From a virus, in the IMG/VR virus record IMGVR_UViG_3300037584_000749, positions 1 through 29,275 of that record: DNA of 29,275 bases, one strand, 5' to 3'. The notes beneath the pieces were generated by a model. The model searched no databases and was not told where the DNA came from. It saw only the letters and a list, made by a program, of their open reading frames with translations. The translations under genes were made by a program, and so were the position numbers. This document shows positions 3,403 through 25,174 of this stretch, one piece after another (position 1 is the stretch's first letter; every line of letters starts with the position of its first letter).

Positions 3403-3409
3403 CGTTATA
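3403..3409 (+). promoter_or_regulatory. CGTTATA element before the head-protease gene
   Basis: CGTTATA followed by ATAAT and the ATG at 3415. The same heptamer with the same 5-base spacing to an ATG occurs at 5392, 7832 and 25168. It sits in a 31-base gap after the tape measure gene. A TTATAA core would place a transcription start at or next to the ATG. An A-run lies about 17 bases upstream but is not distinctive in such AT-rich DNA. Confidence 0.6.
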
Positions 3410-3414
3410 ATAAT

Positions 3415-4986
3415 ATGAAGATTATAGAACTTATTTTAGGAGATAATGTATTTTCAGGAATAGAAGCTATTTCACTTGTTGAATCTCCAGCAATTGAAGA
3501 GGACTTTATAGCTTTAAAATCTCAAGAAGTTAAATTAGCAGAAATATCTAACGAAAAGCGAATTTTAATGGGTGCTTTACTTGTACCTAATAAACCAATA
3601 TATAGAAAAAGTGGTGAAGAAGAATATTATATATATTTCTCTAAAAAAACAATAGAAAAAGCATCTCAGCTTTATTTAATGAATGGTAATCAAAATAATA
3701 CTACTTTAGAACATCAGTACTCTTTAAAAGGGCTAACATTAGTAGAATCTTGGTTAGTAGAAGATGAAGTACACGATAAATCTAGAAAATATGGTTTAGA
3801 TGTACCAGTAGGTACTTGGATGGGAGCAGTAAAAGTAAACTCTGATGAAGTTTGGGATGAATATGTAAAAACAGGAAAAGTTAAAGGATTTAGTATAGAG
3901 GGTTATTTTGCTGATAAAGCAGAACGTCCACAAGAACCAATAAATGACTTTGAAGAAGAAGAGGCAGCAGAAATGCTTTCTGTAATTAGATCAATTGTAA
4001 AAAAAGATGCTAGACTTAAAGAAGGTGAAAGAAGAGAGTTTGAGTCTTATAGTGATTATCCTCAAGCGCTTAAGAATAATGCTAAAAGAGGTATAGATTT
4101 AAATGAGAAAGTAAAGAATAAGTGCGCTACTCAAGTTGGCAAGATAAGAGCTAAACAACTATCACAAGGTAAACCAATCTCTAAAGAAACTATAAAGAGA
4201 ATGTACTCTTATTTAAGTAGAGCGCAGGAATATTATAATGAATCAGACAAAGAGGCTTGTGGCACTATATCTTATTTGTTGTGGGGTGGTAAAGCAGGTT
4301 TAAGATGGGCAAAATCTAAATTAAAAGAATTAGGAGAAATAGAATTAGCTTCTATGATTGTCAATGAAGATTTTGCAATTATAGATGATAGATTAGCTTA
4401 CTCAACACAAGAGAAAGCCGAAGAAATGGCAAAGAACATAGGATGCGAGGGTTTTCATACTCACGAATACGAGGGTAAGACTTGGTATATGCCTTGCGAG
4501 GTTCACATCAAAGAAGATATGAATAAATGCCCTAAGGGTTTTAAAAAAGTATATGGTAAATGTGTAAAGATGGCAGAGGTAGGCAAAAGAGGGGGAATTA
4601 AGGAATCTCCTAAAGCACCAAAGTCAGATACACCAAATCCAAACCCAAAAGGTAAGGGTACAGCAAAAGGAGATGCCTCAACAACAAGAGGTGCTAAAGT
4701 ATCTAAAAAAGATGAAGCTAGTTTAAAAAAAAAGTCAGATGAGTTTAACGAGAGATACAAAAAGAAATTAGGGTATGGTGTAAATGTAGGAATGTTAAAG
4801 GCAGTATTTCAAAGAGGTTTGGGAGCTTTTAATGTTTCAAGAAGTCCAAGAGTAAAAAGTGCTTCACAATGGAGTTTTGCAAGAGTAAACGCTTTTTTAT
4901 ATTTAGTTAAAAATGGACGTCCACAAAACAAAAAATATACAGGAGACTTTGACTTATTGCCAAAAGGACATCCTAAAAAACCATAA
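3415..4986 (+). CDS. XkdF-like prohead protease with C-terminal extra domains
   Basis: 523 residues, several domains. Residues about 1-175 resemble the XkdF-like/S78-type prohead serine protease family: an N-terminal LVESPAIEEDF motif, LEHQ with His100, then GFSIEGYF with Ser160 as the likely catalytic pair. Residues about 205-310 form a second domain with SDYPQALKNNAKRG, NKCATQVGKIRA and CGTISYLLWGGK, seen in phage head proteins. Around 350-400 is a Cys-containing segment (GCEGFH, MPCEVH, KCPKGFKKVYGKC), then a Gly/Pro/Lys linker and a final domain of about 75 residues (GVNVGMLKAVFQRG to LLPKGHP) of unknown role. The protease should cleave scaffold and capsid during head maturation. It opens the head cassette under its own CGTTATA element. 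The assignment of the extra domains is open. Confidence 0.8.
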   Translation: MKIIELILGDNVFSGIEAISLVESPAIEEDFIALKSQEVKLAEISNEKRILMGALLVPNKPIYRKSGEEEYYIYFSKKTIEKASQLYLMNGNQNNTTLEHQYSLKGLTLVESWLVEDEVHDKSRKYGLDVPVGTWMGAVKVNSDEVWDEYVKTGKVKGFSIEGYFADKAERPQEPINDFEEEEAAEMLSVIRSIVKKDARLKEGERREFESYSDYPQALKNNAKRGIDLNEKVKNKCATQVGKIRAKQLSQGKPISKETIKRMYSYLSRAQEYYNESDKEACGTISYLLWGGKAGLRWAKSKLKELGEIELASMIVNEDFAIIDDRLAYSTQEKAEEMAKNIGCEGFHTHEYEGKTWYMPCEVHIKEDMNKCPKGFKKVYGKCVKMAEVGKRGGIKESPKAPKSDTPNPNPKGKGTAKGDASTTRGAKVSKKDEASLKKKSDEFNERYKKKLGYGVNVGMLKAVFQRGLGAFNVSRSPRVKSASQWSFARVNAFLYLVKNGRPQNKKYTGDFDLLPKGHPKKP

Positions 4987-5105
4987 TGGCTAGAAATGTT
5001 GTTAGGAAATATGTAAAACCAAAACGTAAATCGCACCCTCATAGCAAAAATGCGAGTGCAGGTAAAACAGGATATAAAAAAAAATATAAAGGACAAGGAA
5101 GATGA
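4986..5105 (+). CDS. Very basic micro-protein (39 aa)
   Basis: ATG overlaps the protease stop (TAATG). The product is extremely rich in Lys and Arg, with RKYVKPKRKSHPHSKN near the start and KTGYKKKYKGQGR at the end. No hydrophobic segment. Its charge would suit binding to packaged DNA or to acidic scaffold. I recall similar KPKRKSHPHSK-type small proteins in Bacteroidota phage head regions but no assigned function. It is tightly coupled to the next ORF, overlapping its start by four bases. It is too short for most automatic ORF filters. Confidence 0.6.
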   Translation: MARNVVRKYVKPKRKSHPHSKNASAGKTGYKKKYKGQGR

Positions 5106-5203
5106 AAAAAATATGTTTATTTATTCAATGGATAACTTTTAAAAAAGTTTGTTTAGGATATTGCCAAAAAGGTTTATGTCCTAAGAAAAATAAAAAACAA
5201 TAA
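5102..5203 (+). CDS. Cys-containing micro-protein (33 aa)
   Basis: Starts at ATGA, overlapping the stop of the basic micro-protein. It has four cysteines (positions 5, 17, 21 and 26) in the pattern C-x11-C-x3-C-x4-C with WITFKKVCLGYC in the middle. This could be a small metal-binding fold, but no ligand is proven. The end is basic (PKKNKKQ). Coupling to its neighbours and the regular cysteine spacing argue against chance. Function unknown; the head cassette context suggests a capsid-associated or assembly role. Confidence 0.5.
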   Translation: MKKICLFIQWITFKKVCLGYCQKGLCPKKNKKQ

Positions 5204-5205
5204 AA

Positions 5206-5349
5206 ATGAGAAAAGTAATAATACCAGCAAAAGCTAGTCCAAGAGGTGGTAGAAGAGGATGTTTATGTGAAGATAATACCTATTCTGTTAAATGTTGTGA
5301 TGGTAGCATAAGAGCGCAAGGTATAGGCAACATAACAAAAACACCATAA
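5206..5349 (+). CDS. Cys-rich micro-protein (47 aa)
   Basis: Begins two bases after the preceding stop. It starts MRKVIIPAKASPRGGRRG, then has four cysteines in C19-x-C21 and C30-C31 (GCLCEDNTYSVKCCDGS), and ends AQGIGNITKTP. I recall RGCLCEDxTYSxxCC-type small proteins recurring in Bacteroidota phages and prophages, without a known function. The CxC/CC pairing suggests a metal site or disulfides. It closes the micro-ORF trio before the scaffold gene. Confidence 0.6.
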   Translation: MRKVIIPAKASPRGGRRGCLCEDNTYSVKCCDGSIRAQGIGNITKTP

Positions 5350-5391
5350 TTAAAAATAAAAAAACCAAAAATACAAATATAAATTAATAAT

Positions 5392-5398
5392 CGTTATA
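5392..5398 (+). promoter_or_regulatory. CGTTATA element before the scaffold gene
   Basis: CGTTATA, then GTAAT and the ATG at 5404, the same spacing as three other structural genes. It lies in a 54-base AT-rich gap after the micro-ORF trio, the only gap in the head cassette of that size. It would give separate, strong expression of scaffold and capsid. Confidence 0.6.
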
Positions 5399-5403
5399 GT
5401 AAT

Positions 5404-6015
5404 ATGAAAGCAACAGAAATCTTAAAAAATATCAAAACTTTCTTAGGAGAAGAAACAATAGAAGAAACTCCAGTAGAACTTCAAGAAGAAGTTACAGAGG
5501 AAGTAAAAGTAGAGTTAGCACAAGCTAAACTTGAAAACGGAACACTAGTAGAATCAAGTTCATTTGAAAAAGGTGATGAAATTTTTATCATAACAGATGA
5601 TGAAAAAGTAGCTATGCCAGTCGGAGAATACGTTATGGAAGATGGTAAACTTCTTGTAGTTGAAGAAGAAGGTATTATAGCTGACTACAGAATTGTTTCT
5701 GATGACGTACCACAAAAAGAAGATGAAAAGAAAGAAGAAATGGATGAGGAAGCAGCAGTTTACGACTGGAAGGGTATGGAAAAAAGAATTAAAAATCTTG
5801 AAGATGCTATCGCAGATTTAAAATCTAGGATGGGAGAAAAAGAAGATTTTGAAAAAATTGAGCAAGAAGTAAAGCAACAGTTATCAGAAACACCTGCTGC
5901 TGATCCTATTACTCACAGTCCAGAAGTGGACAATAAGAAATTCAATCTAAGGTATGCACAAAACAGAAAGCAAACATCTTTGGATAGAGTGTTAAATAAA
6001 ATGTATAATAACTAA
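5404..6015 (+). CDS. Head scaffolding-like protein
   Basis: 203 residues, directly upstream of the major capsid gene. The N-terminal third is very acidic (runs of Glu with few aromatic residues). Residues about 40-100 form a compact segment with GTLVESSSFEKGDEIFIIT and MPVGEYVMEDGKLLVVEEE, which I recall from flavobacterial phage proteins preceding the capsid. Residues about 125-170 are a predicted coiled coil (RIKNLEDAIADLKSRM), and the C-terminus is basic (NLRYAQNRKQTSLDRVLNKM). Acidic, helical, with a basic C-terminal capsid-binding tail is the usual scaffold layout. The likely partners are the capsid protein at 6028 and the protease at 3415. Function is inferred from composition and position. 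Confidence 0.7.
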   Translation: MKATEILKNIKTFLGEETIEETPVELQEEVTEEVKVELAQAKLENGTLVESSSFEKGDEIFIITDDEKVAMPVGEYVMEDGKLLVVEEEGIIADYRIVSDDVPQKEDEKKEEMDEEAAVYDWKGMEKRIKNLEDAIADLKSRMGEKEDFEKIEQEVKQQLSETPAADPITHSPEVDNKKFNLRYAQNRKQTSLDRVLNKMYNN

Positions 6016-6027
6016 AATTAATTAAAA

Positions 6028-6957
6028 ATGGCAAATCCAACTTATACCGCTGGAAGTTACGCTGGTGAATTTAGTGGTAAAATTATAGGCAGTGCATTGC
6101 TTAGCGCATCAACTTTAGATGCTGGTGCAGTAACAATTATGCCTAACGTAAAGTACAAATCTGTAATTCAGGTAGGTGCTTGGGCAAATGTAGTAAAAGG
6201 AGCATCTTGTGATTTTGATGCAACAACGACTTCATTAACTCTAACAGAAAAAGTATTAGAAACAAAAGAATTACAAGCTAACGCTCAACTTTGTAAAAAA
6301 GAATTGAGAGACGAATGGCAGGCGATTGAAATGGGCTTCTCAGCTTTTGCTGAAATTCCTGCTTCTTTCGAGGAGTATGTAATCTCAAGAGTTGCTGCTC
6401 AAGTAGCAGACGCTTTAGAAACTTCTATCTGGGCTGGTGCTGCAGGTGCTGATGACTTTGATGGTTTTCAAAACTTAGCTTTAGCAGATGGTGATGTAGT
6501 AGATGTTACAGCAGTAGCTGTTGATTCTGCAAATGTAATTGCACAAATGGGAGCTGTAGTAGATGCTGCTAATAAAGCAACTTTACAGAAATCAGACTTA
6601 ACTCTTTATGTTTCAACAAATGTAGCTAGAGCTTATATTAGAGCTTTAGGTGGTTTTGGAACATCAGGTTTAGGTGCAGCAGGTATCAACGATCAAGGTA
6701 CTACTTGGTACTCTAATGGAGCGCTTTTAACTTTTGAAGGTATTCCAGTATTTGTTTGTAACGGAATGGGTAACAACAAAATGCTTCTTACTTATAAGAG
6801 CAACCTTTTCTTCGGAACTGGCTTAACTTCAGATATTAATGAAGTAAGATTTATTGATATGGCTGACAAAGATGGCAGTAATAATTGTAGAGTTATTATG
6901 CGTTATACCGCGGGCTGTCAAATCGGAGTAGGAGCAGATATTGTTTACTATTCTTAA
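6028..6957 (+). CDS. Major capsid protein (HK97-like fold expected)
   Basis: 309 residues, following the scaffold gene by 12 bases with an A-rich leader. The sequence is Ala/Gly-rich and balanced as expected for a highly expressed shell protein. Landmarks are MPNVKYKSVIQVGAWANVV near residue 40, KKELRDEWQAIEMGF with a helical spine near 90-125, and the C-terminal CRVIMRYTAGCQIGVGAD. There is no long N-terminal delta domain; the separate scaffold gene agrees with that. Codon use includes more C-ending codons than neighbours, consistent with strong expression (impression by eye). It is followed at once by an intrinsic terminator, so scaffold and capsid form one transcription unit. Confidence 0.85.
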   Translation: MANPTYTAGSYAGEFSGKIIGSALLSASTLDAGAVTIMPNVKYKSVIQVGAWANVVKGASCDFDATTTSLTLTEKVLETKELQANAQLCKKELRDEWQAIEMGFSAFAEIPASFEEYVISRVAAQVADALETSIWAGAAGADDFDGFQNLALADGDVVDVTAVAVDSANVIAQMGAVVDAANKATLQKSDLTLYVSTNVARAYIRALGGFGTSGLGAAGINDQGTTWYSNGALLTFEGIPVFVCNGMGNNKMLLTYKSNLFFGTGLTSDINEVRFIDMADKDGSNNCRVIMRYTAGCQIGVGADIVYYS

Positions 6958-6967
6958 AAACTAATCC

Positions 6968-6997
6968 AAAAGGGGTAGTTAAGGCTACCCTTTTTTA
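6968..6997 (+). terminator. Intrinsic terminator after the capsid gene
   Basis: GGGTAG (6973-6978), a six-base loop and CTACCC (6985-6990), flanked by A-rich and T-rich sides with a T6 tract. It lies 11 bases after the capsid stop. Its 5' arm AAGGGGTA recurs in two of the terminators after the tail tube gene. Confidence 0.85.
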
Positions 6998-7006
6998 ATA
7001 TTAACC

Positions 7007-7031
7007 TAACTTGTTGATTATCAATAAGTTA
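7007..7031. repeat. 11-bp inverted repeat before the tail tube gene
   Basis: TAACTTGTTGA and TCAATAAGTTA are complementary apart from one G-T pair, around a TTA loop. There is no T-tract after it (AAAATAAAA follows), so it is not a terminator. It could be an operator or a leader hairpin. It lies between the capsid terminator and a TATAAT at 7042-7047 that is four bases from the tail tube ATG. Confidence 0.6.
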
Positions 7032-7051
7032 AAATAAAAAATATAATCGAT

Positions 7052-7588
7052 ATGGCTTGTTTATTAACAAAAGGTAGAAATATACCTTGTAAATCAGGAG
7101 TAGGTGGCTTAAAGTCAGTTTACTTTGCAGATTTCGGTACTTTAGGTGCAATTACTATTACAGATTTTGAAATAGCATCTATTGCAGGTAGCCCTACTTT
7201 ATATCAGTTTGATCTCAAAGGCAACTCTACGATGGAAACCACAGTAACAAGTTCTAGAGAAAATGGTACTACATTTTATGAAAGTACTTTAACTTTAAAC
7301 TTCACTTTCCAAGACAGACACACTCAAGAAGAGATAAGACTTCTTGCTATTGCACGTCCACATATTTGGGTTGAGGCTTATAGTGGCGAAGCAGGTAGCT
7401 CTTACTATTTAATGGGTAAGGTTAATGGTTGTGAGCTAACTTCAGGAACATTTTCTAATGGAGCAGCAATGGGCGACTTAAATGGTTACTCATTGACGTT
7501 TGTAGCTACAGAAATGGCTGCACCAGACTTTACAGTTTCAACAGTTGTAACAGGTGCTTCTCAAGGTTCGAAAATAACTCCTAACTAA
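7052..7588 (+). CDS. Major tail tube protein
   Basis: 178 residues starting MACLLTKGRNIPCKSGVGGL, a start I recall from major tail proteins of flavobacterial phages. The motifs SRENGTTFYESTL, TLNFTFQDRHTQEEIRLLA, ARPHIWVEAYSG and AAMGDLNGYSLTF suit the beta-rich tube fold. It is transcribed alone, with terminators on both sides, which suits a protein needed in many copies. The likely promoter is TATAAT at 7042-7047, four bases from the ATG, so this transcript may also be nearly leaderless. It stands between capsid and portal operons rather than beside the tail chaperone. Confidence 0.75.
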   Translation: MACLLTKGRNIPCKSGVGGLKSVYFADFGTLGAITITDFEIASIAGSPTLYQFDLKGNSTMETTVTSSRENGTTFYESTLTLNFTFQDRHTQEEIRLLAIARPHIWVEAYSGEAGSSYYLMGKVNGCELTSGTFSNGAAMGDLNGYSLTFVATEMAAPDFTVSTVVTGASQGSKITPN

Positions 7589-7616
7589 TAGGGTTTACTT
7601 TGTATCAAAAAAAATT

Positions 7617-7647
7617 AAGGGGTATGTAAATCATATCCCTTTTTTTT
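7617..7647 (+). terminator. Intrinsic terminator 1 after the tail tube gene
   Basis: AGGGGTATG (7618-7626) pairs with CATATCCCT (7632-7640) with one G-U pair and a five-base loop, followed by a run of T to 7647. It lies about 30 bases after the tail tube stop. Confidence 0.85.
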
Positions 7648-7707
7648 ATATCTTTATTTAAACTTTATAAGTTTTCATAATTGAATATAGTTTTTGTTTA
7701 GTAGAAA

Positions 7708-7735
7708 GAGGTAGTTTAATTACTACCTTTTTTTA
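7708..7735 (+). terminator. Intrinsic terminator 2
   Basis: AGGTAGT (7709-7715) and ACTACCT (7722-7728) form a 7-bp stem with a TTAATT loop, followed by T7. No gene lies between it and terminator 1. Confidence 0.8.
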
Positions 7736-7778
7736 TTTAAATATTTTTTCTATATTTATAATGAGTAATTTTCTTTAT

Positions 7779-7808
7779 AAGGGGTAGCAGGAGTGTTACC
7801 CTTTTTTC
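7779..7808 (+). terminator. Intrinsic terminator 3
   Basis: AGGGGTAGCA pairs with TGTTACCCTT (one G-U pair at 7787/7796) around GGAG, followed by a T-rich run. The 5' arm matches the capsid terminator. It ends about 24 bases before the CGTTATA element of the portal operon, so it isolates that promoter from upstream transcription. Confidence 0.8.
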
Positions 7809-7831
7809 TTACACAAAATTTAAATATTGTA

Positions 7832-7838
7832 CGTTATA
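7832..7838 (+). promoter_or_regulatory. CGTTATA element before the portal operon
   Basis: CGTTATA, then TAAGT and the ATG at 7844. It follows a three-terminator stack, so new transcription must start here or very near. This is the best contextual evidence that the heptamer is a promoter. Confidence 0.65.
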
Positions 7839-7843
7839 TAAGT

Positions 7844-8209
7844 ATGATACACTTGACTACATCTGCTTCGGCTCAAACTATGAAAATAATTCCAAGAAGT
7901 TATGCTGGTACAGTAAGTATGATTTTAAGAGACGATTCAACAAACGTCTCTACAACCTACTCATCTATTAGTACAACAACAGACAAGAATTACTTAGTAA
8001 TCTCTAAAGCATTAAGCCCTGTATTAGTAGAAGGTAGATTTTATGACTTAACAGTTAAACAGGGATCAAGTGTTATTTATAAAGATAAGATATTCTGTAC
8101 TGATCAAACTATTAATCAATCTAACAATGATTATTATTCAGTAAATGACGGAGCTTATACAGTTCCAACTGGTACAGATGCTTATGATAATGATTATATT
8201 ATAATATGA
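7844..8209 (+). CDS. Predicted structural protein ahead of the portal gene (121 aa)
   Basis: The ATG at 7844 is chosen over an in-frame GTG at 7793, because the latter lies inside terminator 3 and the CGTTATA element sits five bases before 7844. The product begins MIHLTTSASAQTMKIIPRSY and is beta-rich with many Ser/Thr and no charged helices, ending in an acidic Tyr/Asp-rich tail (GTDAYDNDYIII). KIFCTDQTINQSNNDYYSV is a further landmark. I recall similar short proteins beside structural genes in flavobacterial phages, with no set function; a head-decoration, neck or fibre-linked role is possible. Its stop overlaps the portal start by four bases. Confidence 0.65.
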   Translation: MIHLTTSASAQTMKIIPRSYAGTVSMILRDDSTNVSTTYSSISTTTDKNYLVISKALSPVLVEGRFYDLTVKQGSSVIYKDKIFCTDQTINQSNNDYYSVNDGAYTVPTGTDAYDNDYIII

Positions 8210-10017
8210 AAAATAAAACAGAATTAAGTATTGTTAATTTAAGCACCTATACTTCTCCACAAGTAAAAGAGAAAGCTGGAGCTGATTGGGTAGAATTTGG
8301 TGCAGACAATAATTATTTTCAATACCTAATTGACAGATATAATGGCTCACCGACTAATATGGCTATTATAAATGGTATTTCTGAAATGATTTACGGAAAA
8401 GGCTTAGATGCTACTGATTCTAACAGAAAACCAGAAGAATATGCAATGATGATTACTTTATTTAAAGATGAGGTGGTTAGAAGATTATGTTCTGATTTAA
8501 AGTTAATGGGACAATGTGCAATACAAGTTATTTATTCTAAAGATAGAAGTAGAATTGTAAAGCTAGAGCATATTCCTGTAGAAACTTTAAGAGCAGAAAA
8601 ATGCAATGATAAAGGAGAAATACCTGCATATTTTTATTTTAATGATTGGGCTAAATATCGTAGAGGTAATAAACTAAAAAGAATACCTGCTTTTGGAATG
8701 TCAAACGAAGGACTAGAGATACTATATGTAAAGCCTTATAGAGCAGGTTATAAATATTATAGTCCGCCAGATTATGAGGGAGGAACTCAGTATGCAGAGC
8801 TTGAACAAGAAATATCTAATTATCACCTTAACAACATTCTAAATGGACTAGCTCCAAGTATGTTAATTAATATGAATAATGGGACACCATCTCCAGAGGA
8901 AAGAGAGATGATAGAACAAAGAATATATCAGAAATTTTCAGGGACTAGCAATGCGGGCAAAATGATCCTCAGTTTTAATGATGATCCAAGTACCGCGGCA
9001 ACTATTGATCCTGTTCAATTAAGTGATGCGCATAGTCAATATCAGTTCCTAAGTGATGAAAGTTCTAAAAAAATTATGGTATCTCATAGAGTAGTAAGTC
9101 CTATGTTACTTGGAGTAAAAGATAATACAGGTTTTGGTAGCAATGCAGACGAACTAAAAACAGCAAGTATCTTAATGGATAATATGGTAATACGTCCATT
9201 TCAAACATTGCTTATTAATAGTTTTGATACAATACTTGCTTACAATGACATTTCTCTGCATTTATACTTTAAAACGCTTCAGCCGCTTGAATTTACAGAC
9301 TTAACTAATGTAACTGATGCAGAAACAAGAGAAGAAGAAACAGGAGTTAAATTATCAGAGGATAAAGAAGATACAAATCTTTCTGATCTTGACAAGTTTA
9401 TAGATTTAGGAGAAAATGAAGAAGATTTATTAAAAGATTATGATTTAATTGATGAACACGAAGTGGACTATGATTTAGAGGATGAATTAGATGCAAACAT
9501 TGAGCAACTAAACAATGAAGTAAAATTAGCTAGAGTAGGTAAAGCAACTCCGTATAAAGAGAGTGAGCAAGATGGGAAAAGTAAAAAGAAAGAAGATATT
9601 ACATATTTAGTAAGATATATGTACACTAAAGCACCTGGTAAAGCAGATTCATCAAGAGATTTTTGTAAAAAGATGACAAGAGCAAATAAAGTTTATCGTA
9701 AAGAAGATATTACTGCTATGAGTGATATACCTGTAAATCCTGGCTTTGGAAAAGGTGGCGCAGCTACTTATTCAATATGGTTATGGAAAGGCGGAGCTAG
9801 ATGCTTTCATAGATGGACTAGAAAGATATATGCTAGAAAAGATGGTGATAGAAGTTTAGGAGATACTGTAAGTACAAACAAAGCAATTAAAGATGGTTTT
9901 AAACCTAAAACAAATGCTAAAAAAGTACCTATAGCGCCTAGAAATATGCCATATGAGGGATATACCGCAGCGTATTGGAATAAGATGGGATTCACTTATG
10001 ATAATTTAAAGAGGTAA
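8206..10017 (+). CDS. Portal protein with C-terminal morphogenesis-like domain
   Basis: 603 residues. Residues about 1-365 match a phage portal: an N-terminal wing, a NNYFQYLIDRYNGSPTN motif, a stem/clip region with YHLNNILNGLAPSMLINMNNG near 206-226, and SHRVVSPMLLGVKDNTGFG near 293-311. About 365-445 is an acidic linker. About 465-545 is a separate domain with RDFCKKM (484-490), YRKEDI, an NPGFGKGGAATYSIWLWKGG stretch and ARCFHRW (531-537). The F-C and C-H-R-W pattern recalls MuF/SPP1 gp7-type head morphogenesis domains, but that is inference. The portal forms the dodecameric DNA gate, binding terminase (24 kb region) and the connector at 10020. It is encoded far from terminase, after the capsid, which is unusual. 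Confidence 0.82.
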   Translation: MKNKTELSIVNLSTYTSPQVKEKAGADWVEFGADNNYFQYLIDRYNGSPTNMAIINGISEMIYGKGLDATDSNRKPEEYAMMITLFKDEVVRRLCSDLKLMGQCAIQVIYSKDRSRIVKLEHIPVETLRAEKCNDKGEIPAYFYFNDWAKYRRGNKLKRIPAFGMSNEGLEILYVKPYRAGYKYYSPPDYEGGTQYAELEQEISNYHLNNILNGLAPSMLINMNNGTPSPEEREMIEQRIYQKFSGTSNAGKMILSFNDDPSTAATIDPVQLSDAHSQYQFLSDESSKKIMVSHRVVSPMLLGVKDNTGFGSNADELKTASILMDNMVIRPFQTLLINSFDTILAYNDISLHLYFKTLQPLEFTDLTNVTDAETREEETGVKLSEDKEDTNLSDLDKFIDLGENEEDLLKDYDLIDEHEVDYDLEDELDANIEQLNNEVKLARVGKATPYKESEQDGKSKKKEDITYLVRYMYTKAPGKADSSRDFCKKMTRANKVYRKEDITAMSDIPVNPGFGKGGAATYSIWLWKGGARCFHRWTRKIYARKDGDRSLGDTVSTNKAIKDGFKPKTNAKKVPIAPRNMPYEGYTAAYWNKMGFTYDNLKR

Positions 10018-10019
10018 TT

Positions 10020-15833: not shown

Positions 15834-15944
15834 AAGGCGTATATATAATTAATATATATAATTCACAGAGTAAGTTGTTTAAGGGATGAGTATATATTAT
15901 ATATATATAGGCGAAGTTATATATTTTTTTTGTAATTTCAAATA
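15834..15944. other. AT-rich palindromic spacer between lysis and recombination genes
   Basis: The spacer contains TATATATA-ATTAA-TATATATA, a second TATATATTATATATATATA tract, and two partly similar segments beginning AGGCG (near 15835 and 15909). It ends with TAT8GTAATTT shortly before the next ATG, resembling the TA-T(n)-GTA elements elsewhere. It could hold a promoter, an easily melted origin, or an operator. No gene is seen. Confidence 0.4.
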
Positions 15945-16343
15945 ATGCCTAGAAAAACTTCAAGAAAAAATTTAGTTAAAAAATTAGATGCTGTATTTAG
16001 CGAATACATAAGGCGAAAATATGCAGACAAAAATGGCATAGTAAAATGCTATACTTGTAACAAAAAAGCATATTGGAAAGGTGAGGGTATGCAAAATGGA
16101 CACTTTATTTCAAGAAGATCAAGAATACTAAGATGGAGGGAAGATAATTGTAGGGTGCAATGTTATTCTTGTAACTGTATGAGATATGGACAAGCATATA
16201 TTTTTGGAGCTAATTTAAATAAAGAATATGGCTATAACATAGCTGAGGAATTGTTAATAGAAAGTAAGAAAATAATTAAACAATCTGATCAAGATTTATT
16301 AGATTTGATAGATGAATATAAAGAAAAAATAAATTTGTTATAG
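15945..16343 (+). CDS. ninG: NinG/Rap-like recombination nuclease
   Basis: 132 residues of the lambda NinG type, a structure-specific nuclease aiding phage recombination. It has paired cysteines CYTC (35-38) and CYSC (73-76) that should bind zinc, GHFISRRSRILRW (52-64) with the expected catalytic His, and DNCRVQCYSCN ending the HNH-like core. The N-terminus is basic (MPRKTSRKNLVKKL). The end is an acidic helix. It is a monocistronic unit: an AT-rich spacer lies before it and a strong terminator just after. Other recombination genes (SSB-like, RecE-like nuclease) lie downstream. Confidence 0.82.
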   Translation: MPRKTSRKNLVKKLDAVFSEYIRRKYADKNGIVKCYTCNKKAYWKGEGMQNGHFISRRSRILRWREDNCRVQCYSCNCMRYGQAYIFGANLNKEYGYNIAEELLIESKKIIKQSDQDLLDLIDEYKEKINLL

Positions 16344-16358: not shown

Positions 16359-16392
16359 TTAAGAGGGGTTTACTTCGGTAAGCCTCTTTTTT
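16359..16392 (+). terminator. Intrinsic terminator with UUCG loop after ninG
   Basis: A stem of about 13 bp with G-U pairs, arms AAGAGGGGTTTAC and GTAAGCCTCTT around a TTCG tetraloop closed by C-G, followed by a run of T. It lies 15 bases after the ninG stop. Confidence 0.88.
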
Positions 16393-17285: not shown

Positions 17286-18194
17286 ATGCTTATAAACTAC
17301 GATGAACATATAGACAAACTAAACGACTTTAGAAAAGGTAAAGTCAAAGAGGCATTAAAGCTAGGTAATAAAGAACTAGATGCTTCATTCCGCTTTGTTG
17401 CTGGTAATATGAATTTTATTCTCGGACATAACAACGTTGGTAAAACACACTTTACATTTTATCTAATGTTACTCTATTCAATTAAACATAAAATTAAATG
17501 GTTAGTATTTAGTTCTGAAAACGATCCTGTACAGCTCATAAAAAAACTTATTGAATTTTTAGAAGGCAAACCAATAAACAAAATAGAAGAATCAGATTAC
17601 GAAAAATCAAGAGATTTTGTATATAATCATTTTAAGTTTGTTGACATAAACAGACAGTACACTTATAAAGAATTATTAGACTTAGCTAAAAACATTAAAG
17701 AGGCTTGGAATTATGACGGGCTATTAATTGATCCTATAAACTCACTAAGAAAAGATTTAAGAAATACAAATGGTTATGAATACAGCTATGAGTGCTTAAC
17801 TGAGATTCGGTTATTCTGTAAAAAATATAACGTATCAACTTGGATATGTTGCCACGCAGTTACAAATGCTTTAAGAACTAGATATAGTGCAAATCACGAG
17901 TTCGGCGGACAAATAATGCCTCCTACTATTGGAGATGCTGAAGGAGGAGCCGTAAATGGAAATAGGTGTGATGACTTCTTAATTATACATAGAATGATAG
18001 CTTCACCAGATTCTTGGATGTATACGAGAATGTATGTAGCTAAGGTTAAGGAAATGTCGTTAGGATATAAACCAACAAGCCACGAATCACCAATACTATT
18101 TAAGTCAATACTTAATAACGTAGGCTTTGAAATAGGTGGTACAAATTTAATAAAGTATAGAACTAAAAAACAATTAACAATTGACAACTCTTGA
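17286..18194 (+). CDS. DnaB/RecA-type replicative ATPase
   Basis: 302 residues. A RecA-fold motor with Walker A GHNNVGKT (47-54) and Walker B GLLIDP (145-150); WLVFSSENDP near 72-81 is the strand and glutamate region after the P-loop in DnaB-like and KaiC-like ATPases, and STWICCHAV is the sensor strand. It lacks the long N-terminal DnaB domain, so it is a helicase core or a related recombinase/loader. The closest picture I recall is the DnaB-like ATPase of Bacteroidota phages, with motif GHxNVGKT and EGGxxxNRxDDFLxIHR as seen near 218-232. It probably unwinds DNA or handles filaments with the SSB-like proteins. No polymerase or primase accompanies it. The start directly follows a terminator T-tract. 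Confidence 0.75.
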   Translation: MLINYDEHIDKLNDFRKGKVKEALKLGNKELDASFRFVAGNMNFILGHNNVGKTHFTFYLMLLYSIKHKIKWLVFSSENDPVQLIKKLIEFLEGKPINKIEESDYEKSRDFVYNHFKFVDINRQYTYKELLDLAKNIKEAWNYDGLLIDPINSLRKDLRNTNGYEYSYECLTEIRLFCKKYNVSTWICCHAVTNALRTRYSANHEFGGQIMPPTIGDAEGGAVNGNRCDDFLIIHRMIASPDSWMYTRMYVAKVKEMSLGYKPTSHESPILFKSILNNVGFEIGGTNLIKYRTKKQLTIDNS

Positions 18195-18672
18195 GAAATT
18201 AGCTAGTAAGCACAAAACCTGGATAAGGATTGTAAAGTCTTTTGGGTGCAAAGGTTATTTGTGTGAAGATGTCGTGCAGGAGGCTTATCTAAAAATCAAC
18301 ACTTTACTTGATAAAGGTTTAAATATAAATTATGAAGATGATATAAATTATTTTTATATGTATCGAACCTTAAAATCTTTGTTTTTAGATTTATGCAGAA
18401 AGGAATCTAAAATACAGAAAGTTAATGTTGAATATTTAGAAAAATTTACACAGCCAGAGCAAGAAACAAAACACAAAGATATAACAGGGAAAATGCGACA
18501 ACTAAACACCTTACTAGATAAAATGTTTTGGTATGATGCTAAAGTATTTAATTTAATTTCTGGGGGTATGTCGATTGCAGAATTATCAAAAAAGTCAGGG
18601 ATAAGTTATTATAGCCTGTATAATACTTACAAAAATACTAAGATGATAATTAAAAAAAATATAGAATGGTAG
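18181..18672 (+). CDS. Small sigma-70-like transcription factor
   Basis: 163 residues. Residues about 12-40 (WIRIVKSFGCKGYLCEDVVQ then EAYLKI) match the region 2 core of ECF-like sigma factors, where the E-D-x-V-Q-E motif binds RNA polymerase. Residues about 55-75 correspond to a shortened 2.3-2.4. Residues about 125-160 (ISGGMSIAELSKKSGISYYS followed by LYNTYKNTK) are a region 4 helix-turn-helix. TTG at 18181 is the only plausible start, because TAA lies two codons upstream and no ATG precedes the conserved region; it overlaps the ATPase gene end by 14 bases. Weak TTG initiation plus translational coupling would keep its level low. A role in late transcription is inferred. Confidence 0.72.
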   Translation: MTTLEKLASKHKTWIRIVKSFGCKGYLCEDVVQEAYLKINTLLDKGLNINYEDDINYFYMYRTLKSLFLDLCRKESKIQKVNVEYLEKFTQPEQETKHKDITGKMRQLNTLLDKMFWYDAKVFNLISGGMSIAELSKKSGISYYSLYNTYKNTKMIIKKNIEW

Positions 18673-19943: not shown

Positions 19944-19962
19944 TTAACATTTGTTTATATTG

Positions 19963-19972
19963 TATTTTTTTG
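19963..19972 (+). promoter_or_regulatory. TA-T7-GTATATTAG promoter-like element
   Basis: TATTTTTTTG followed by TATATTAG, about 30 bases before the ATG at 20002, in a 58-base spacer. It resembles the elements at 16418 and 12560 (T-run, G, TA). A TTTG lies at 19950-19953. Confidence 0.45.
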
Positions 19973-20001
19973 TATATTAGCAGTAAATAAAACTAATAAT
20001 T

Positions 20002-20151
20002 ATGAAAAAAGTATTAATAGACAGATTAGAAATCCTAGATGATTTAGTTGTAACAGGGACTTTTAAATGGAGATCAGAGATTGATCCTAGTTGGAAACCT
20101 ATGGTTTGGAATGAAACCTTTGAATGTTGGACAAAGAATTATTGTGGGTAA
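20002..20151 (+). CDS. Small hypothetical protein (49 aa)
   Basis: First ORF after the promoter-like element, with an A-rich leader (ATGAAAAAAGTATT). The product has MKKVLIDRLEILDDLVVTGT, then aromatic residues (FKWRSEIDPSWKPMVW) and ends ECWTKNYCG. No known family. It overlaps the next gene by up to 41 bases depending on the start used there. Confidence 0.5.
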   Translation: MKKVLIDRLEILDDLVVTGTFKWRSEIDPSWKPMVWNETFECWTKNYCG

Positions 20152-20440
20152 AAAGATAAACAATCTTAAGGAACTAGAGATTTGGACTGATCTAAATTTT
20201 CTTTCTTCTATAATTAAAAGTAGAATAGATAAAAGAAAAACAAAGAATTTAGAGAAGATGTCTGAATCTATTGTGAGAGTTATTTATTACTTTCAAGAAT
20301 ACTCCAACAATATACGACTACATAAAAAAGCTCTTGGAGAATACAGACTTGCCAAAAACAGAGCAATAGAAAGAGCAAGAAAAGCAGAGAAACAAAACGA
20401 AAAACTTAAACTTAAAATAAAAAAATATGCCAATTTATAA
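20111..20440 (+). CDS. Coiled-coil protein, start uncertain
   Basis: From ATG 20111 the product is 109 residues (MKPLNVGQRIIVGKKINNL). A GTG at 20144 that overlaps the previous stop would be the better coupled start and gives 98 residues. The C-terminal half is a long basic coiled coil (GEYRLAKNRAIERARKAEKQ). The central part (EKMSESIVRVIYYFQEY) is helical. No catalytic motif is visible. The operon context (RecE-like nuclease, DnaA-domain protein) suggests a DNA-metabolism accessory; unassigned. Confidence 0.55.
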   Translation: MKPLNVGQRIIVGKKINNLKELEIWTDLNFLSSIIKSRIDKRKTKNLEKMSESIVRVIYYFQEYSNNIRLHKKALGEYRLAKNRAIERARKAEKQNEKLKLKIKKYANL

Positions 20441-20675
20441 CGAAATATTTGACAGCTATAGAGAAGAGGTAGATAAAATTCATAAAGCTATGAGGCTACT
20501 TGTTAAACACCGATATAAGATAATTGATTTAGAGAATCACCTTATACACAATGGTAATATTGACAAGGCAAGATCAAGAGCAATACAAGGAGAAGATTCT
20601 AAAAGAGCAAGATACGATAGAGTACCAAAACACTCACGAGTTTATCTAAGCACTAATGAAGAAAGTAAAGAATAA
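20427..20675 (+). CDS. Small basic helical protein (82 aa)
   Basis: Overlaps the coiled-coil gene by 14 bases. It has MRLLVKHRYKIIDLENHLIH and a strongly basic second half (KARSRAIQGEDSKRARYDRV). A RLLxKxxYxIIDLExxLI segment appears in other phage proteins I recall, without a function. Likely nucleic-acid-associated by charge only. The stop is two bases before the nuclease gene. Confidence 0.55.
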   Translation: MPIYNEIFDSYREEVDKIHKAMRLLVKHRYKIIDLENHLIHNGNIDKARSRAIQGEDSKRARYDRVPKHSRVYLSTNEESKE

Positions 20676-20677
20676 TT

Positions 20678-21442
20678 ATGATACAATTATTAAACGGAGA
20701 AACGTTTAGAGAGGATGAGATACTAGAGCTAATGAAAGATGATGAGTTCTACTATGGTTACTTAGGCAAAGCTGCACTCAGTTCCTCATCTATCAAACTA
20801 CTATTAGATAGTCCAAAGAAATACAAATACGTTACAGAATACGGATCACAAGAATCAAATGCTTTAGATGCAGGTTGGTTATTTCATACAGCAATACTTG
20901 AACCAGAAGTTTTTAGCTCACAAATATTTGTAGATGTGCAAAGCAAAAACACAAAGGCTTATAAACTAGCTAAAGAAGAACACGGAAAGGTTTTTACTAT
21001 GAAACAAAAAAGAGATGCAGAGAGATTAGCTGATGCCTTTCTAAGAAACGAACACGCCTTACAACTAATAACAGACTGCGAGTTTGAAGTTCCTGCAATA
21101 GGTATGGTGCAGGGTTATCCGTTTAGAGGCAAAGCAGATGTCTTAGGAAAAGGATTAGTAGATTTAAAAACAACAAGCGACTTAAAAGCATTTCCTTATG
21201 CTGCAAGAAAGTATGGATATGATGTACAAGTATATTTATACTCAGAACTATTTAACAAACCTTACGAGGAGTTTAAGTTTGCAGCTATAGACAAAGGATC
21301 ATTAGATATAGGTATCTATGATGTTAGTGAGGAGTTTTATTTACAAGGAAAAGCTAAAGTAACAAAAGCAATAGAAACATTTGAAACATTTTTTATTAAC
21401 GGAGCAGACTTGGATAGTTACTGCATTAAAGGGACATTATGA
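20678..21442 (+). CDS. Exodeoxyribonuclease VIII-like PD-(D/E)XK nuclease
   Basis: 254 residues, matching the PDDEXK family related to RecE/ExoVIII (Pfam PF12684 as I recall). Motifs in order: LSSSSIKLLLDSPKKYKY (35-52), ALDAGWLFHTAILEP (62-76, His70), a Glu-rich strand near 135 (CEFEVPAIG), YPFRGKADVLG with Asp154, VDLKT with Asp162 and Lys164, then YDVQVYLYSE (181-190) with the conserved Gln and Tyr. It should degrade one strand from double-strand ends, feeding recombination with the SSB-like proteins; no RecT-like annealase is recognised. Its stop overlaps the DnaA-domain gene by four bases. Confidence 0.8.
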   Translation: MIQLLNGETFREDEILELMKDDEFYYGYLGKAALSSSSIKLLLDSPKKYKYVTEYGSQESNALDAGWLFHTAILEPEVFSSQIFVDVQSKNTKAYKLAKEEHGKVFTMKQKRDAERLADAFLRNEHALQLITDCEFEVPAIGMVQGYPFRGKADVLGKGLVDLKTTSDLKAFPYAARKYGYDVQVYLYSELFNKPYEEFKFAAIDKGSLDIGIYDVSEEFYLQGKAKVTKAIETFETFFINGADLDSYCIKGTL

Positions 21443-21879
21443 GCGAGGCAAATAAAATAGCAAAAGACATTATTGATATATCACAAATAAATCTATTTTC
21501 TAATACAAGAAAAAGAGAATTTGTAGAGATAAGAAGTTTACTTACGTTTATGCTTAGACATCATTGCGATATGAAGTTTAAAGAGATAAAAGAATTTTAC
21601 GAATCTAATGGAAAGAATTATGATCACGCAACAGCAATACATAGTTTAAGATCATTTGAAATGAATAGGAGATACAATCCAAAGTTAGATAAGTATTTTG
21701 ATATAGTTCTTCTTAGAGTAAGAAACAAAACAAAATTAAGAAAAGCGCTATTAAACCACATAATAGACTACACTAAAGCAAAAGACTTAAAAAGACTTTT
21801 AAAAATAGTAGATAAATTACCCTTAAAAAATATAGATGGAAAAGAACAAACAAAAGAGAAAGCAGATACCCTTGTATAG
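21439..21879 (+). CDS. DnaA domain IV-like DNA-binding protein
   Basis: 146 residues. Residues about 20-80 read like the origin-binding helix-turn-helix of DnaA: REFVEIRSLLTFMLRHHCD corresponds to the R..E.V..R....YLxR helix, KFKEIKEFYESNGKNYDHAT to the loop and signature helix, and YDHATAIHSL (61-70) to the DnaA DHSTVxHA box. It lacks the AAA+ ATPase domain. It could be a replication initiator, an origin-marking factor that recruits host DnaB or the ATPase at 17286, or a repressor. The second half is basic and helical (KTKLRKALLNHI, KDLKRLLKIV). Confidence 0.7.
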   Translation: MSEANKIAKDIIDISQINLFSNTRKREFVEIRSLLTFMLRHHCDMKFKEIKEFYESNGKNYDHATAIHSLRSFEMNRRYNPKLDKYFDIVLLRVRNKTKLRKALLNHIIDYTKAKDLKRLLKIVDKLPLKNIDGKEQTKEKADTLV

Positions 21880-22162
21880 TGGACTAGTAAAATACTTTCC
21901 TGATGCACTATGCGAAGTATCAAGAGTAAGCTACATAGGAAGTAAACAACATCATCCTGACGAGGAGATACATTGGGATAGAGAAAAAAGCAAAGACGAT
22001 TTAGATGCACTTATGCGACACTTAATGGAAAATGGTATGCACGATATAGATGGAGTAAGACACTCAGCAAAGATTGCTTGGAGAGCATTAGCACACTTAC
22101 AAAAAGAAATAGAGGGAGATAAGTTTCATTCCTCAGATCATATAATATCAGGAACTGAATAA
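21836..22162 (+). CDS. dATP/dGTP diphosphohydrolase N-domain-like protein
   Basis: 108 residues, overlapping the DnaA-domain gene by 44 bases. It begins MEKNKQKRKQIPLYSGLVKY and has FPDALCEVSRVSYIGSKQHH, EIHWDRE, DALMRHL and HSAKIAWRALAHLQKE, the order seen in the family annotated as dATP/dGTP diphosphohydrolase N-terminal (PF18909 as I recall). That family hydrolyses or senses purine dNTPs, in some phages linked to altered base use. Here it stands alone as a short protein. Metal-binding residues are plausible in HWD, RHL and the His of GVRHS. Activity unproven. Confidence 0.65.
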   Translation: MEKNKQKRKQIPLYSGLVKYFPDALCEVSRVSYIGSKQHHPDEEIHWDREKSKDDLDALMRHLMENGMHDIDGVRHSAKIAWRALAHLQKEIEGDKFHSSDHIISGTE

Positions 22163-22180
22163 TAACTAAATATAAAAACA

Positions 22181-22924
22181 ATGGAAACAATTAAAAAAGG
22201 AATATATAAACCAAATTACTCAATTAATAAACTAAAGTATGCAACAGTCAACAGAGATATGACACTTAATCACGCACATAACTTTAAAACAAAACTTATA
22301 GATTATGGGTGGATGATGCCAATAGTAGTATCAAAAACAGGTGATGTATTAGAGGGACACCATAGGATAGAGAGTGCAAAGCTACTCAAACAAGAAACAG
22401 TACCTGCATACATAGTAGATTGGGTAGACACAAAACAAGTTAAAGAACACTTAGATTGTATTATTAGCCTAAACAACGGAAACAAAGCTTGGAGTATGTT
22501 TGATTACCTCAAAGCATTTGCAAAGCATAACGATGACTACAAAACAGTTTATGATGCTTATATGAGCAACTCTAACAATGTATCAGTAGGAAACATAATA
22601 AACATATTCTTTAGACATAACAACTCTAAATTTAAAAAAGGAACAGCTAAAATAGAAGATTTACAATTTGCTAAATATTTATTATATAACATATCTAACT
22701 TATACGAAAAGTATGGTTACAAAAAAATCCAAGCGTATTGTGTAAGAGAATTTATCAAAGTAGCATACGCTAAAGCACAAAAAAACAAAAAAGCAGTAGA
22801 TTACTTATTTAAACAATATGAAAAGATGGCAAAAAGAGATCATTTAGCTATATCATCTATAAGTGAGTTTAAACCTATATTAGAAGTATATTTAAACGAT
22901 TATAAATTATTATCTAAACAATGA
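22181..22924 (+). CDS. ParB-like nuclease/DNA-binding domain protein
   Basis: 247 residues. The N-terminal 100 residues carry the ParB/Srx fold: MPIVVSKTGDVLEGHHRIES with EGHHR at 58-62 in place of the ParB GEHR box and VPAYIVDW after it. The remaining 150 residues are helical and basic (YLLYNISNLYEKYGYKK, FIKVAYAKAQKNKKAV) with no ParB helix-turn-helix recognised. Phage ParB-like proteins of this type are often paired with DNA methyltransferases; here the stop overlaps the methyltransferase start by four bases. It may nick or bind DNA, or bind nucleotides like CTP-binding ParB; undetermined. Confidence 0.75.
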   Translation: METIKKGIYKPNYSINKLKYATVNRDMTLNHAHNFKTKLIDYGWMMPIVVSKTGDVLEGHHRIESAKLLKQETVPAYIVDWVDTKQVKEHLDCIISLNNGNKAWSMFDYLKAFAKHNDDYKTVYDAYMSNSNNVSVGNIINIFFRHNNSKFKKGTAKIEDLQFAKYLLYNISNLYEKYGYKKIQAYCVREFIKVAYAKAQKNKKAVDYLFKQYEKMAKRDHLAISSISEFKPILEVYLNDYKLLSKQ

Positions 22925-23562
22925 AAATACTAAATCTTTATGCTTGTTTGGGAGGTAATAGATATAAGTGGGGAGATAACCACGATATTACAGCTGTAGA
23001 ATGGGATGAGGAATTAGCAAGATTATATCAAGAGAGATTTCTAAAAGATAAAGTAATAGTAGCAGATGCACACGAATACTTGTTAAAACATTATAAAGAG
23101 TATGATTTTATTTGGAGTTCTCCTCCTTGTCCAAGTCATAGTAGAATAAATATCAGCCAATATACGAGAGATAATTGGACACCAAAATATCCTGATATGG
23201 CACTATATCAAGAAGTAATTTTTTTAGATAATTATTATAATGGACAATATGTAGTTGAAAATGTTATACCTTTCTATGAGCCATTGATACCTGCAAAGAA
23301 AAGAGGTAGGCATTTATATTGGTGTAATTTTAGACTGCCAAACATATTAAGTAAAAGAAAAAATCCTGACTTATCAAGAACAAAAAATTTAATAAATGCT
23401 ATGTCAGAGTTTCACGATTACGACTTTAGAAAATATAAAGGAAAACAAAGAATGAATAAAATAGCAAGAAACCTTGTAGATTATGAAGCAGGAAAAACTA
23501 TATTAGACACAGCTTTAGGAATAATGACAAAACAAGATACAACTCAAACAGAATTATTTTGA
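22921..23562 (+). CDS. Small cytosine-C5 methyltransferase-like protein
   Basis: 213 residues. NLYACLGGNRYKWG (5-18) is motif I for AdoMet, ITAVEWDEE (23-31) motif II, VIVADA (45-50) motif III, WSSPPCPSHS (65-74) motif IV with Cys70 as the nucleophile, ENV (113-115) motif VI and KKRGRHLYW (126-134) motif VIII. Most C5 methyltransferases exceed 300 residues and have PCQ at motif IV; this one has PCP and almost no target-recognition domain. It may be a solitary enzyme protecting phage DNA from host restriction, or a fast-evolving relative. No restriction enzyme gene is nearby. It overlaps both neighbours. Confidence 0.72.
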   Translation: MKILNLYACLGGNRYKWGDNHDITAVEWDEELARLYQERFLKDKVIVADAHEYLLKHYKEYDFIWSSPPCPSHSRINISQYTRDNWTPKYPDMALYQEVIFLDNYYNGQYVVENVIPFYEPLIPAKKRGRHLYWCNFRLPNILSKRKNPDLSRTKNLINAMSEFHDYDFRKYKGKQRMNKIARNLVDYEAGKTILDTALGIMTKQDTTQTELF

Positions 23563-23702
23563 AAGATAAGAAATGGACACATAAACAAAAGATAGCACAG
23601 ATAGAAAGAATAACAGCTAATCTTTATATAATGGTAGATAAAATATCTAAAGAGATTATAGAGATTAAAAAAAGACTACCTGAACAAAATCCTGAAAACT
23701 AA
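23559..23702 (+). CDS. Small helical protein before the terminase genes (47 aa)
   Basis: TTG start at 23559 overlapping the methyltransferase stop (TTGA). The product MKDKKWTHKQKIAQIERITAN followed by LYIMVDKISKEIIEIKKRL is one coiled-coil-like helix. I recall similar KWTxKQRIxQIExxTANLYMM proteins in Bacteroidota phages. Its stop codon runs into the CGTTATA element of the terminase operon. Confidence 0.5.
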   Translation: MKDKKWTHKQKIAQIERITANLYIMVDKISKEIIEIKKRLPEQNPEN

Positions 23703-23709
23703 CGTTATA
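23703..23709 (+). promoter_or_regulatory. CGTTATA element before the terminase genes
   Basis: The heptamer is the same as before the head and portal genes, but here no ATG lies five bases downstream. A TTG lies three bases on (23713) and the likely true ATG at 23737. A start near 23715 would give a 22-base leader, unlike the leaderless pattern elsewhere. Confidence 0.5.
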
Positions 23710-23711
23710 TA

Positions 23712-23733
23712 CTTGAATAATCAAGTTTTTTTC
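23712..23733 (+). terminator. Possible weak terminator or leader hairpin
   Basis: CTTGA-ATAA-TCAAG followed by T7, directly after the CGTTATA element and just before the small terminase ATG. The 5-bp stem is weak. It may end read-through from the replication genes while new transcription begins at the element. Confidence 0.35.
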
Positions 23734-23736
23734 AAG

Positions 23737-23976
23737 ATGAGTAAACACGGAGGTAAAAGAGAGGGTGCAGGTAGAAAGCCTAAACAACAAGAGCAAGATC
23801 TAATAGACAAGCTCGATACTATTATAAACAAAGAAGAAGTAATTAAAAAGTTAGGAGAAAAAGCTCTTAGTGGAGATATGAGAGCTATGGGTTTGTATAT
23901 GGGTTATAGATATGGTAAACCAAAAGAAACAAAGGACATACACATAAACGAAGATGTACCTTTATTTATTGATTAA
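23737..23976 (+). CDS. terS: Small terminase subunit-like protein
   Basis: 79 residues from ATG 23737 (MSKHGGKREGAGRKPKQQEQ). The upstream in-frame TTG at 23713 would add eight residues from a hairpin sequence and is rejected. GGKREGAGRKP is the basic opening common to many small terminases and similar helix-turn-helix proteins; about 30-60 form helices (LIDKLDTIINKEEVIKKLG). It should recognise the packaging site and feed DNA to the large subunit. It overlaps the large subunit start by one base (TAATG). Confidence 0.7.
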   Translation: MSKHGGKREGAGRKPKQQEQDLIDKLDTIINKEEVIKKLGEKALSGDMRAMGLYMGYRYGKPKETKDIHINEDVPLFID

Positions 23977-25145
23977 TGCAAATATCCAAAACCTACGCAC
24001 TAAACAAACTTCGAGAACTAGACAAAAGAGTTCGTATAATTAGAGGAGGTTCTTCTGCAGGTAAAACAATAGCTATAATAGCCATACTTATAGACTATGC
24101 AATTCGTAACAAATCAAAAGAAATAAGCATAGTAGCAGAATCAATACCTCATCTTCGTAGAGGTGCTTTAAAAGACTTTCTTAATATCTTAAAGGGGTTG
24201 AATAGGTATGATGATAGAAAGTTTAATAAGAGTACCTTAAAATACGAATTCAGTAATGGTAGTTATATAGAATTCTTTAGCACAGATCAGCCAGACAAAT
24301 TAAGAGGTGCAAGAAGAACAGACTTATTTATTAATGAGTGCAACAATGTGAGCTTTGATTCCTACCAACAACTAGCAGTTAGAACATCAGGCAATATATG
24401 GCTCGACTATAACCCTGCTAACTTATTTTGGGTTGACAAAGAATTAATAGGACAGCAAGATGCGAACTTTATAACATTAACCTATAAAGACAATGACAGT
24501 TTACCAGAATCAATAATTAAAGAAATAGAGAAAGCTCAAGTAAAAGCTAAGACATCTACTTATTGGGCTAACTGGTGGAAGGTGTACGGACTAGGACAGA
24601 TTGGTAGTTTAGAGGGTGTATGTATTCCTGATTGGAAACCTATAGATCAAATACCACAAGAAGCTAGATTACTTTGCGCAGGCTTAGATTTTGGATATTC
24701 TGTAGATCCAAGCTCAATTATAAGACTTTATAAATGGAATGATGCTTACATCTTTGATGAGGTATTATATCGTAAAGGAATGTTAAATAGAGATTTAAGC
24801 TACTTCATAAAACAGAACAATATACTAGAACACATATACGCAGATAGTGCAGAGCCTAAGTCAATACAAGAGTTAAGGAACTATGGGCATAAAGTTTATC
24901 CAGTTACAAAAGGTAAAGATTCAATAGTCTATGGTATTAACCTAATTAACCAAAATGAAATCTATGTAACCTCTAAGTCTAAGAATCTTATTAAAGAACT
25001 CCAAGGCTATATTTGGGACAAAGACAAAGAAGGTAACAATCTACAAAAACCTACAGGCTTACATCCTGATTGCATTGATGCAGCACGATACGCTTTAATG
25101 ATGCAATTAAAAAACCCAAACAAAGGGAAATACATAATTCAATAG
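23976..25145 (+). CDS. terL: Terminase large subunit
   Basis: 389 residues, the packaging motor and nuclease. ATPase: GGSSAGKT (24-31) as Walker A and DLFINECNN (116-124) as Walker B with the catalytic Glu121, with TDQPDKLRGARRTD between. SGNIWLDYNPAN (139-149) follows as the coupling region. Nuclease: LDFGYSVDPS with Asp238, YADSAEP with Asp290, and HPDCIDAARYA (363-373) with Asp365/Asp368, a full RNase-H-like set. This PBSX/XtmB-like type suits packaging of concatemers. It is preceded by the small subunit and followed, after a 34-base gap with a CGTTATA element, by tail genes and not by a portal. Confidence 0.92.
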   Translation: MQISKTYALNKLRELDKRVRIIRGGSSAGKTIAIIAILIDYAIRNKSKEISIVAESIPHLRRGALKDFLNILKGLNRYDDRKFNKSTLKYEFSNGSYIEFFSTDQPDKLRGARRTDLFINECNNVSFDSYQQLAVRTSGNIWLDYNPANLFWVDKELIGQQDANFITLTYKDNDSLPESIIKEIEKAQVKAKTSTYWANWWKVYGLGQIGSLEGVCIPDWKPIDQIPQEARLLCAGLDFGYSVDPSSIIRLYKWNDAYIFDEVLYRKGMLNRDLSYFIKQNNILEHIYADSAEPKSIQELRNYGHKVYPVTKGKDSIVYGINLINQNEIYVTSKSKNLIKELQGYIWDKDKEGNNLQKPTGLHPDCIDAARYALMMQLKNPNKGKYIIQ

Positions 25146-25167
25146 TTTCTAAAACTTTTTATTTCTA

Positions 25168-25174
25168 CGTTATA
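25168..25174 (+). promoter_or_regulatory. CGTTATA element before the tail operon
   Basis: CGTTATA, TATGT, then the ATG at 25180: the same 5-base spacing as at 3403, 5392 and 7832. It would start the tail genes that run through 27957 and across the contig junction to the tape measure. Confidence 0.62.

Follow-up and report, generated by a model that had tools for sequence, protein, structure and literature searches.

The structural and packaging genes of this phage are very probably expressed from a common late promoter that is probably recognized by the phage's own ECF-type sigma factor and that very probably leads, for the most part, to leaderless first genes. As envisaged here, the promoter would comprise an AAA box in the role of a -35 element, 14 bp, the bases C-12 G-11 T-10 T-9 A-8 T-7 A-6, five further bases and a purine at which transcription starts. 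The sigma factor, made from the replication operon, would bring host RNA polymerase to these promoters and would activate the operons for structure and packaging. Four of the five sites would have +1 at the A of the ATG, so that the first gene of the operon would be read from a leaderless mRNA, and the small terminase message would carry a 22-nt leader. The takeover of host RNA polymerase by a phage sigma factor is a known strategy; the proposed pairing of an ECF-type late sigma with a start-codon promoter, and the apparent recognition code that connects them, would be the new part.

A bipartite motif upstream of the late genes

The window (the whole stretch of DNA that was analysed, 29,275 nucleotides) holds nine copies of CGTTATA on its two strands, where 2.9 are expected and where none of 100 shuffles reached nine; its abundance is genuine and well beyond chance. 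Six copies start on the + strand, at 3403, 5392, 6901, 7832, 23703 and 25168, and three on the - strand, at 17826, 20436 and 27193. The positions 3403, 5392, 7832, 23703 and 25168 are those of the first base of the motif and not of an ATG. An earlier note on this DNA had reported most of this placement from the letters alone, and an exact count agrees with it: CGTTATA-N5-ATG is found at 3403, 5392, 7832 and 25168 and nowhere on the - strand, the copy at 23703 lies ahead of the small terminase gene with no ATG at the five-base distance (its ATG is at 23737), and the one remaining + strand copy, at 6901, is inside a gene, as are all three - strand copies. The intergenic placement of the motif, also claimed there, is equally firm, since a generous gene set leaves just 3.4% of the window between genes, and the presence of five of the six + strand copies in that share has P ~2.5e-7.

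What the earlier reading overlooked was an upstream AAA box, together with the probable cognate sigma factor. The pattern AAA-N14-CGTTATA has five matches in the window against 0.11 expected (0 of 100 shuffles), all of them intergenic, on the + strand and ahead of late genes, and none of the four coding CGTTATA copies has the AAA at N14. In four of the five bipartite copies the C of CGTTATA is exactly 12 bases before the ATG. The genes behind the motif are structural and packaging genes, identities that fit a late promoter. The predicted promoters and the features that accompany them are as follows.

3386-3415, + strand: late promoter 1 (AAA 3386-3388, N14, CGTTATA 3403-3409), predicted +1 at the A of ATG 3415, head maturation protease gene; kept in relatives
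5375-5404, + strand: late promoter 2 (AAA 5375-5377, CGTTATA 5392-5398), predicted +1 at the A of ATG 5404, scaffold-like gene and then capsid gene
7617-7641 and 7700-7737: two further terminator-like hairpins upstream of promoter 3
7779-7804, + strand: hairpin resembling an intrinsic terminator, immediately ahead of promoter 3
7815-7844, + strand: late promoter 3 (AAA 7815-7817, CGTTATA 7832-7838), predicted +1 at the A of ATG 7844, pre-portal gene and then portal gene
16361-16390, + strand: terminator-like hairpin ahead of the replication cluster, presumed early, in which the sigma gene lies
18181-18672, + strand: ECF-type sigma factor by its structural model, 163 aa, TTG start; the protein proposed to read these promoters, with S66 and D70 as proposed specificity residues
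23686-23715, + strand: late promoter 4 (AAA 23686-23688, CGTTATA 23703-23709), predicted +1 at G 23715, small terminase ATG at 23737; same layout in relatives
25151-25180, + strand: late promoter 5 (AAA 25151-25153, CGTTATA 25168-25174), predicted +1 at the A of ATG 25180, chaperone-like gene

A CGATATA-N5-ATG at 26492 was considered as a sixth site and rejected as a coding coincidence, because its matching bases vary in relatives and lie within upstream coding sequence. The order of a terminator-like hairpin followed by the pre-portal promoter is also visible in relatives. Several relatives share a conserved T-rich box ending TTTTGTAATTTC (window 15834-15944) ahead of the gene at 15945, a candidate early or host-read promoter.

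A search with the portal protein led to 80 IMG/VR loci, and in the loci chosen in this way CGTTATA-N5-ATG again marks the genes for protease, scaffold and pre-portal protein, with no copy on the opposite strand. Among loci chosen by portal or sigma there are 131 bipartite sites in the sense orientation and none in antisense, with ATG at +12 in 120; removal of near-duplicates leaves 13 nonredundant sites, with ATG at +12 in 11 and an AAA-box spacing of 14 likewise in 11. Loci found through the motif pattern itself (L106-L221 and L223-L341) were excluded from these unbiased spacing counts. The small-terminase sites and some scaffold sites of relatives keep the bipartite motif without an ATG at +12, and most of the genuine non-ATG sites have a purine at the +1 place, which argues for a promoter and not a translation signal. 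In one clade (for example L050, L059 and L065) the scaffold promoter reads AGTTATA-N5-ATG with TGTAAAAT upstream, and the protease promoter is still CGTTATA.

The Nonlabens phage P12024S (Inhavirus, JQ823122), whose portal is 37% identical to that of the window, bears CAAA-N14-CGTTAATA (CAAA-N14-CGTTA) at several genes, with the C 12 bases before the ATG, and its P12024S_33 is annotated as a sigma-70 region 2 protein. It differs from the window in its -10 element, which is CGTTAATA and not CGTTATA, and in its sigma, which is only 24% identical. From P12024S we infer a flavobacterial host for the window phage.

The phage sigma factor and the predicted start site

The structural model identifies the product of the open reading frame at 18181-18672 as an ECF-type sigma factor. 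In the AlphaFold2 model two helical domains (residues 1-74 and 101-160) are joined by a disordered, low-confidence linker (78-98), which is the sigma2-linker-sigma4 architecture of ECF sigmas. The top Foldseek matches are all ECF sigmas (sigmaE, SigL, SigH, RpoE, AlgU and SigW, probability ~1), with a best E value of only 2.2e-3 and a whole-chain TM below 0.5. The Pfam Sigma70_r2 model gives this frame 17.5 bits, under the gathering cut-off of 24, and a weak match of this kind is found in 17 of the 18 members of the sigma family; the PHROG sigma family is matched at E = 1e-4, and sequence searches with the sigma against the PDB and cultured phages returned nothing useful.

Among the 37 long contigs picked by portal or motif, 34 have a member of the family, as do P12024S and L105, and none of 9 pattern-matching contigs that lack homologous late genes has one. 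Four of the 37 contigs (L283, L298, L315 and L339) match the motif only in-gene, and as the sole match is within coding sequence they were rejected as CGATATA genomes. Because common descent by itself gives co-occurrence, these counts alone say little as to whether the sigma reads the motif. The IMG/VR contigs behind L221 (18322-19241) and L270 (20556-21550) have tandem sigma-like frames, the second more distant, which are possibly a duplicated sigma.

In the open complex of sigmaH the -10 element is G-11 T-10 T-9 with T-9 flipped out, N88 contacts T-10 and N92 contacts the -11 pair (PMC6411747). The phage sigma was set without gaps on the sigmaH residues of that study (PMC6411747), a proposed register which would equate S66 with N88 and D70 with N92. 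An alignment with E. coli RpoE was set aside in favor of the gap-free register: RpoE has four additional residues between the anchors, and this brings residue 66 to N84. By sigmaH geometry CGTT occupies -12 to -9, which would place +1 on the A of the ATG. The CGT/GTT type of -10 element and its rigid spacing to an upstream box are characters of ECF promoters. Matches to sigma70-type consensus sequences are not above chance in the window, where the Bacteroidota housekeeping (sigmaA) -7 box TAHHTTTG occurs 36 times, the level of chance, and on the + strand serves none of the five sites.

The retention of genes and spacing in relatives, the bipartite element, the terminator-like hairpin just ahead of one copy and the ECF geometry make it likely that transcription from a late promoter begins at the start codon. 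This much of the earlier note is supported; a sigma70-like TATAAT reading gives way to an ECF-type element, and the 'TTATAA/T core' that the note described fails at 5392, where the letters are TTATAG. Its proposal of leaderless late mRNAs is likely to be right for four of the five sites, given the ECF geometry, the promoter evidence and the constant T-1/A+1, but the small terminase mRNA should have a 22-nt leader. The same promoter and sigma might nevertheless start transcription one or a few bases off the A, giving very short leaders or messages from which the A is lost. Start-site choice commonly varies by a base or two, and this version is unlikely without being negligible; against it, the ECF geometry derived from sigmaH places +1 on the A, T-1 is invariant among the ATG sites, and a purine stands at +1 in most genuine sites without ATG. 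Leaderless mRNAs are few in Flavobacterium psychrophilum (5.5%; PMC9723704) and the transcripts of F. johnsoniae are mostly leadered (PMC6847099), so that leaderless late expression would be unusual for a flavobacterial host and, if the model is true, would take place where host mRNAs mostly have leaders.

Promoter bases that vary in step with residues 66 and 70 of the sigma

The promoters are probably read by the phage's own ECF-type sigma factor, and the strongest evidence is an apparent coevolution of promoter and sigma, in which the residues concerned align with the sigmaH readers of -10 and -11. The motif was expected at the same sites in related phages, and close relatives keep it; in distant clades its position and layout are kept and its letters change together. 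Genomes switch the motif coherently, some having CGATATA at all their own late promoters, and orthologues of late promoter 5, ahead of the chaperone-like gene, bear clade-specific triplets. In a first class comparison, in which the second column listed is an alignment gap, residue 66 alone cleanly separates CGT (S, A, T or N) from CGA (G), and it ranks first of 163 positions for the CGT/CGA class among 103 sequences. A tree made without residue 66 has three promoter-class changes, which residue 66 follows save in L563, with G66 and yet a CGTTATA promoter.

L105 has H at both 66 and 70 and TATTATA ahead of several late genes. Residue 70 was for this reason suspected of reading -11, and other residue-70 genomes were examined; as expected after L105, Q at this position goes with TATTATA and N with TTATATA, that is, with other -11 bases. 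Sorted by residues 66/70, the -12/-11/-10 triplet is CGT with (S,T)/D (49 sense-strand sites for SD and 21 for TD), CGA with G/D (11), TAT with T/Q (11) and TTA with G/N (8), the TAT and TTA sites lying mostly ahead of the chaperone orthologue and background matches being present, notably antisense TTATATA in SD genomes. When positions are ranked in the wider later set, residue 70 comes out on top for base -11, and residue 66 takes third place for -10. Residue 66 has about three independent switches and residue 70 two or three, numbers with which a sign test cannot reach significance, and many loci are without a classifiable promoter because their flanks are short. The code apparent from these sequences would pair S, T or N at 66 with T-10 and G with A-10, and D at 70 with G-11, Q or H with A-11, and N with T-11. 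We think it reasonably probable that a widespread phage family related to a flavobacterial phage uses an ECF-type late sigma whose 66/70 recognition code for -10/-11 evolves, with switches re-set across the late promoters of each genome and initiation at the start codon kept throughout.

A host ECF sigma or another phage regulator might read the motif instead, the phage sigma merely occurring with it, as would be expected among related phages; promoters of ECF type with a CGT box do exist in Flavobacterium psychrophilum (PMC9723704). This is improbable, in that the promoter letters track residues 66/70 of the phage sigma at the positions predicted from sigmaH, and the strict pattern in bacterial genomes turns up in many different phyla and has phage homologues beside it at none of 116 loci, a scatter on which identification of the motif as a host promoter was also rejected. 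It is very hard to credit CGUUAUA as an RNA-level signal for ribosome recruitment or processing, fixed in its distance to the start codon, since the constant ATG spacing at four window sites and in relatives that would suit it has to be set against small-terminase and some scaffold sites that keep the bipartite motif without ATG there, the rigid 14-bp gap to the AAA box and the covariation with sigma residues.

Recognition by the phage sigma, if true, would provide a readable late-gene switch for uncultured phages related to flavobacterial phages. The numerous natural pairs in which sigma and promoter have changed to match each other would offer ready data on the ECF recognition code, useful for orthogonal sigma-promoter pairs and for spotting phage sigmas that family models miss.

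Known systems and further features of the window

The phage sigma resembles ECF (group IV) sigmas such as Mycobacterium tuberculosis sigmaH and E. coli sigmaE in its predicted two-domain sigma2-linker-sigma4 fold and, as regards sigmaH, in residues aligned with the readers of -10 and -11. Its promoters share with ECF promoters the G-11 T-10 T-9 kind of -10 element and the rigid gap to an upstream box. It is distinguished by being phage-encoded, by a Pfam match under the cut-off and by a predicted +1 at the start codon, and the upstream box is AAA or CAAA and not the GGAAC type of many ECF promoters.

T4 gp55 and SPO1 gp28 are phage-encoded sigma factors. Sporulation-like sigmas are also encoded by phages (PMC9429907). 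The strategy of redirecting host RNA polymerase with a phage sigma is a known one; the sigma of the window differs in being of ECF type and in belonging to relatives of a flavobacterial phage. The literature searched contained no account of a late ECF-type phage sigma with this promoter. The late promoters of AR9 and phiKZ, AACA-N6-TA/G and TATG (PMC5312081), are alike in having a short consensus at a fixed distance from the start site and are different in that multisubunit RNA polymerases of the phages recognize them. The same study remarks that phage transcripts often lack a leader, and in it AR9 leaders are 26-491 nt (PMC5312081).

Two further observations concern the window itself. Its ends, 1-592 and 28665-29275, are two variants of the same gene region (127 bases identical, ~71% over 608 aligned columns), which suggests that the genome is circular or terminally redundant and that its assembly drew on mixed strains. 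The frame at 21439-21879 encodes a protein with a DnaA C-terminal-like domain just under the Pfam cut-off, possibly a replication regulator.
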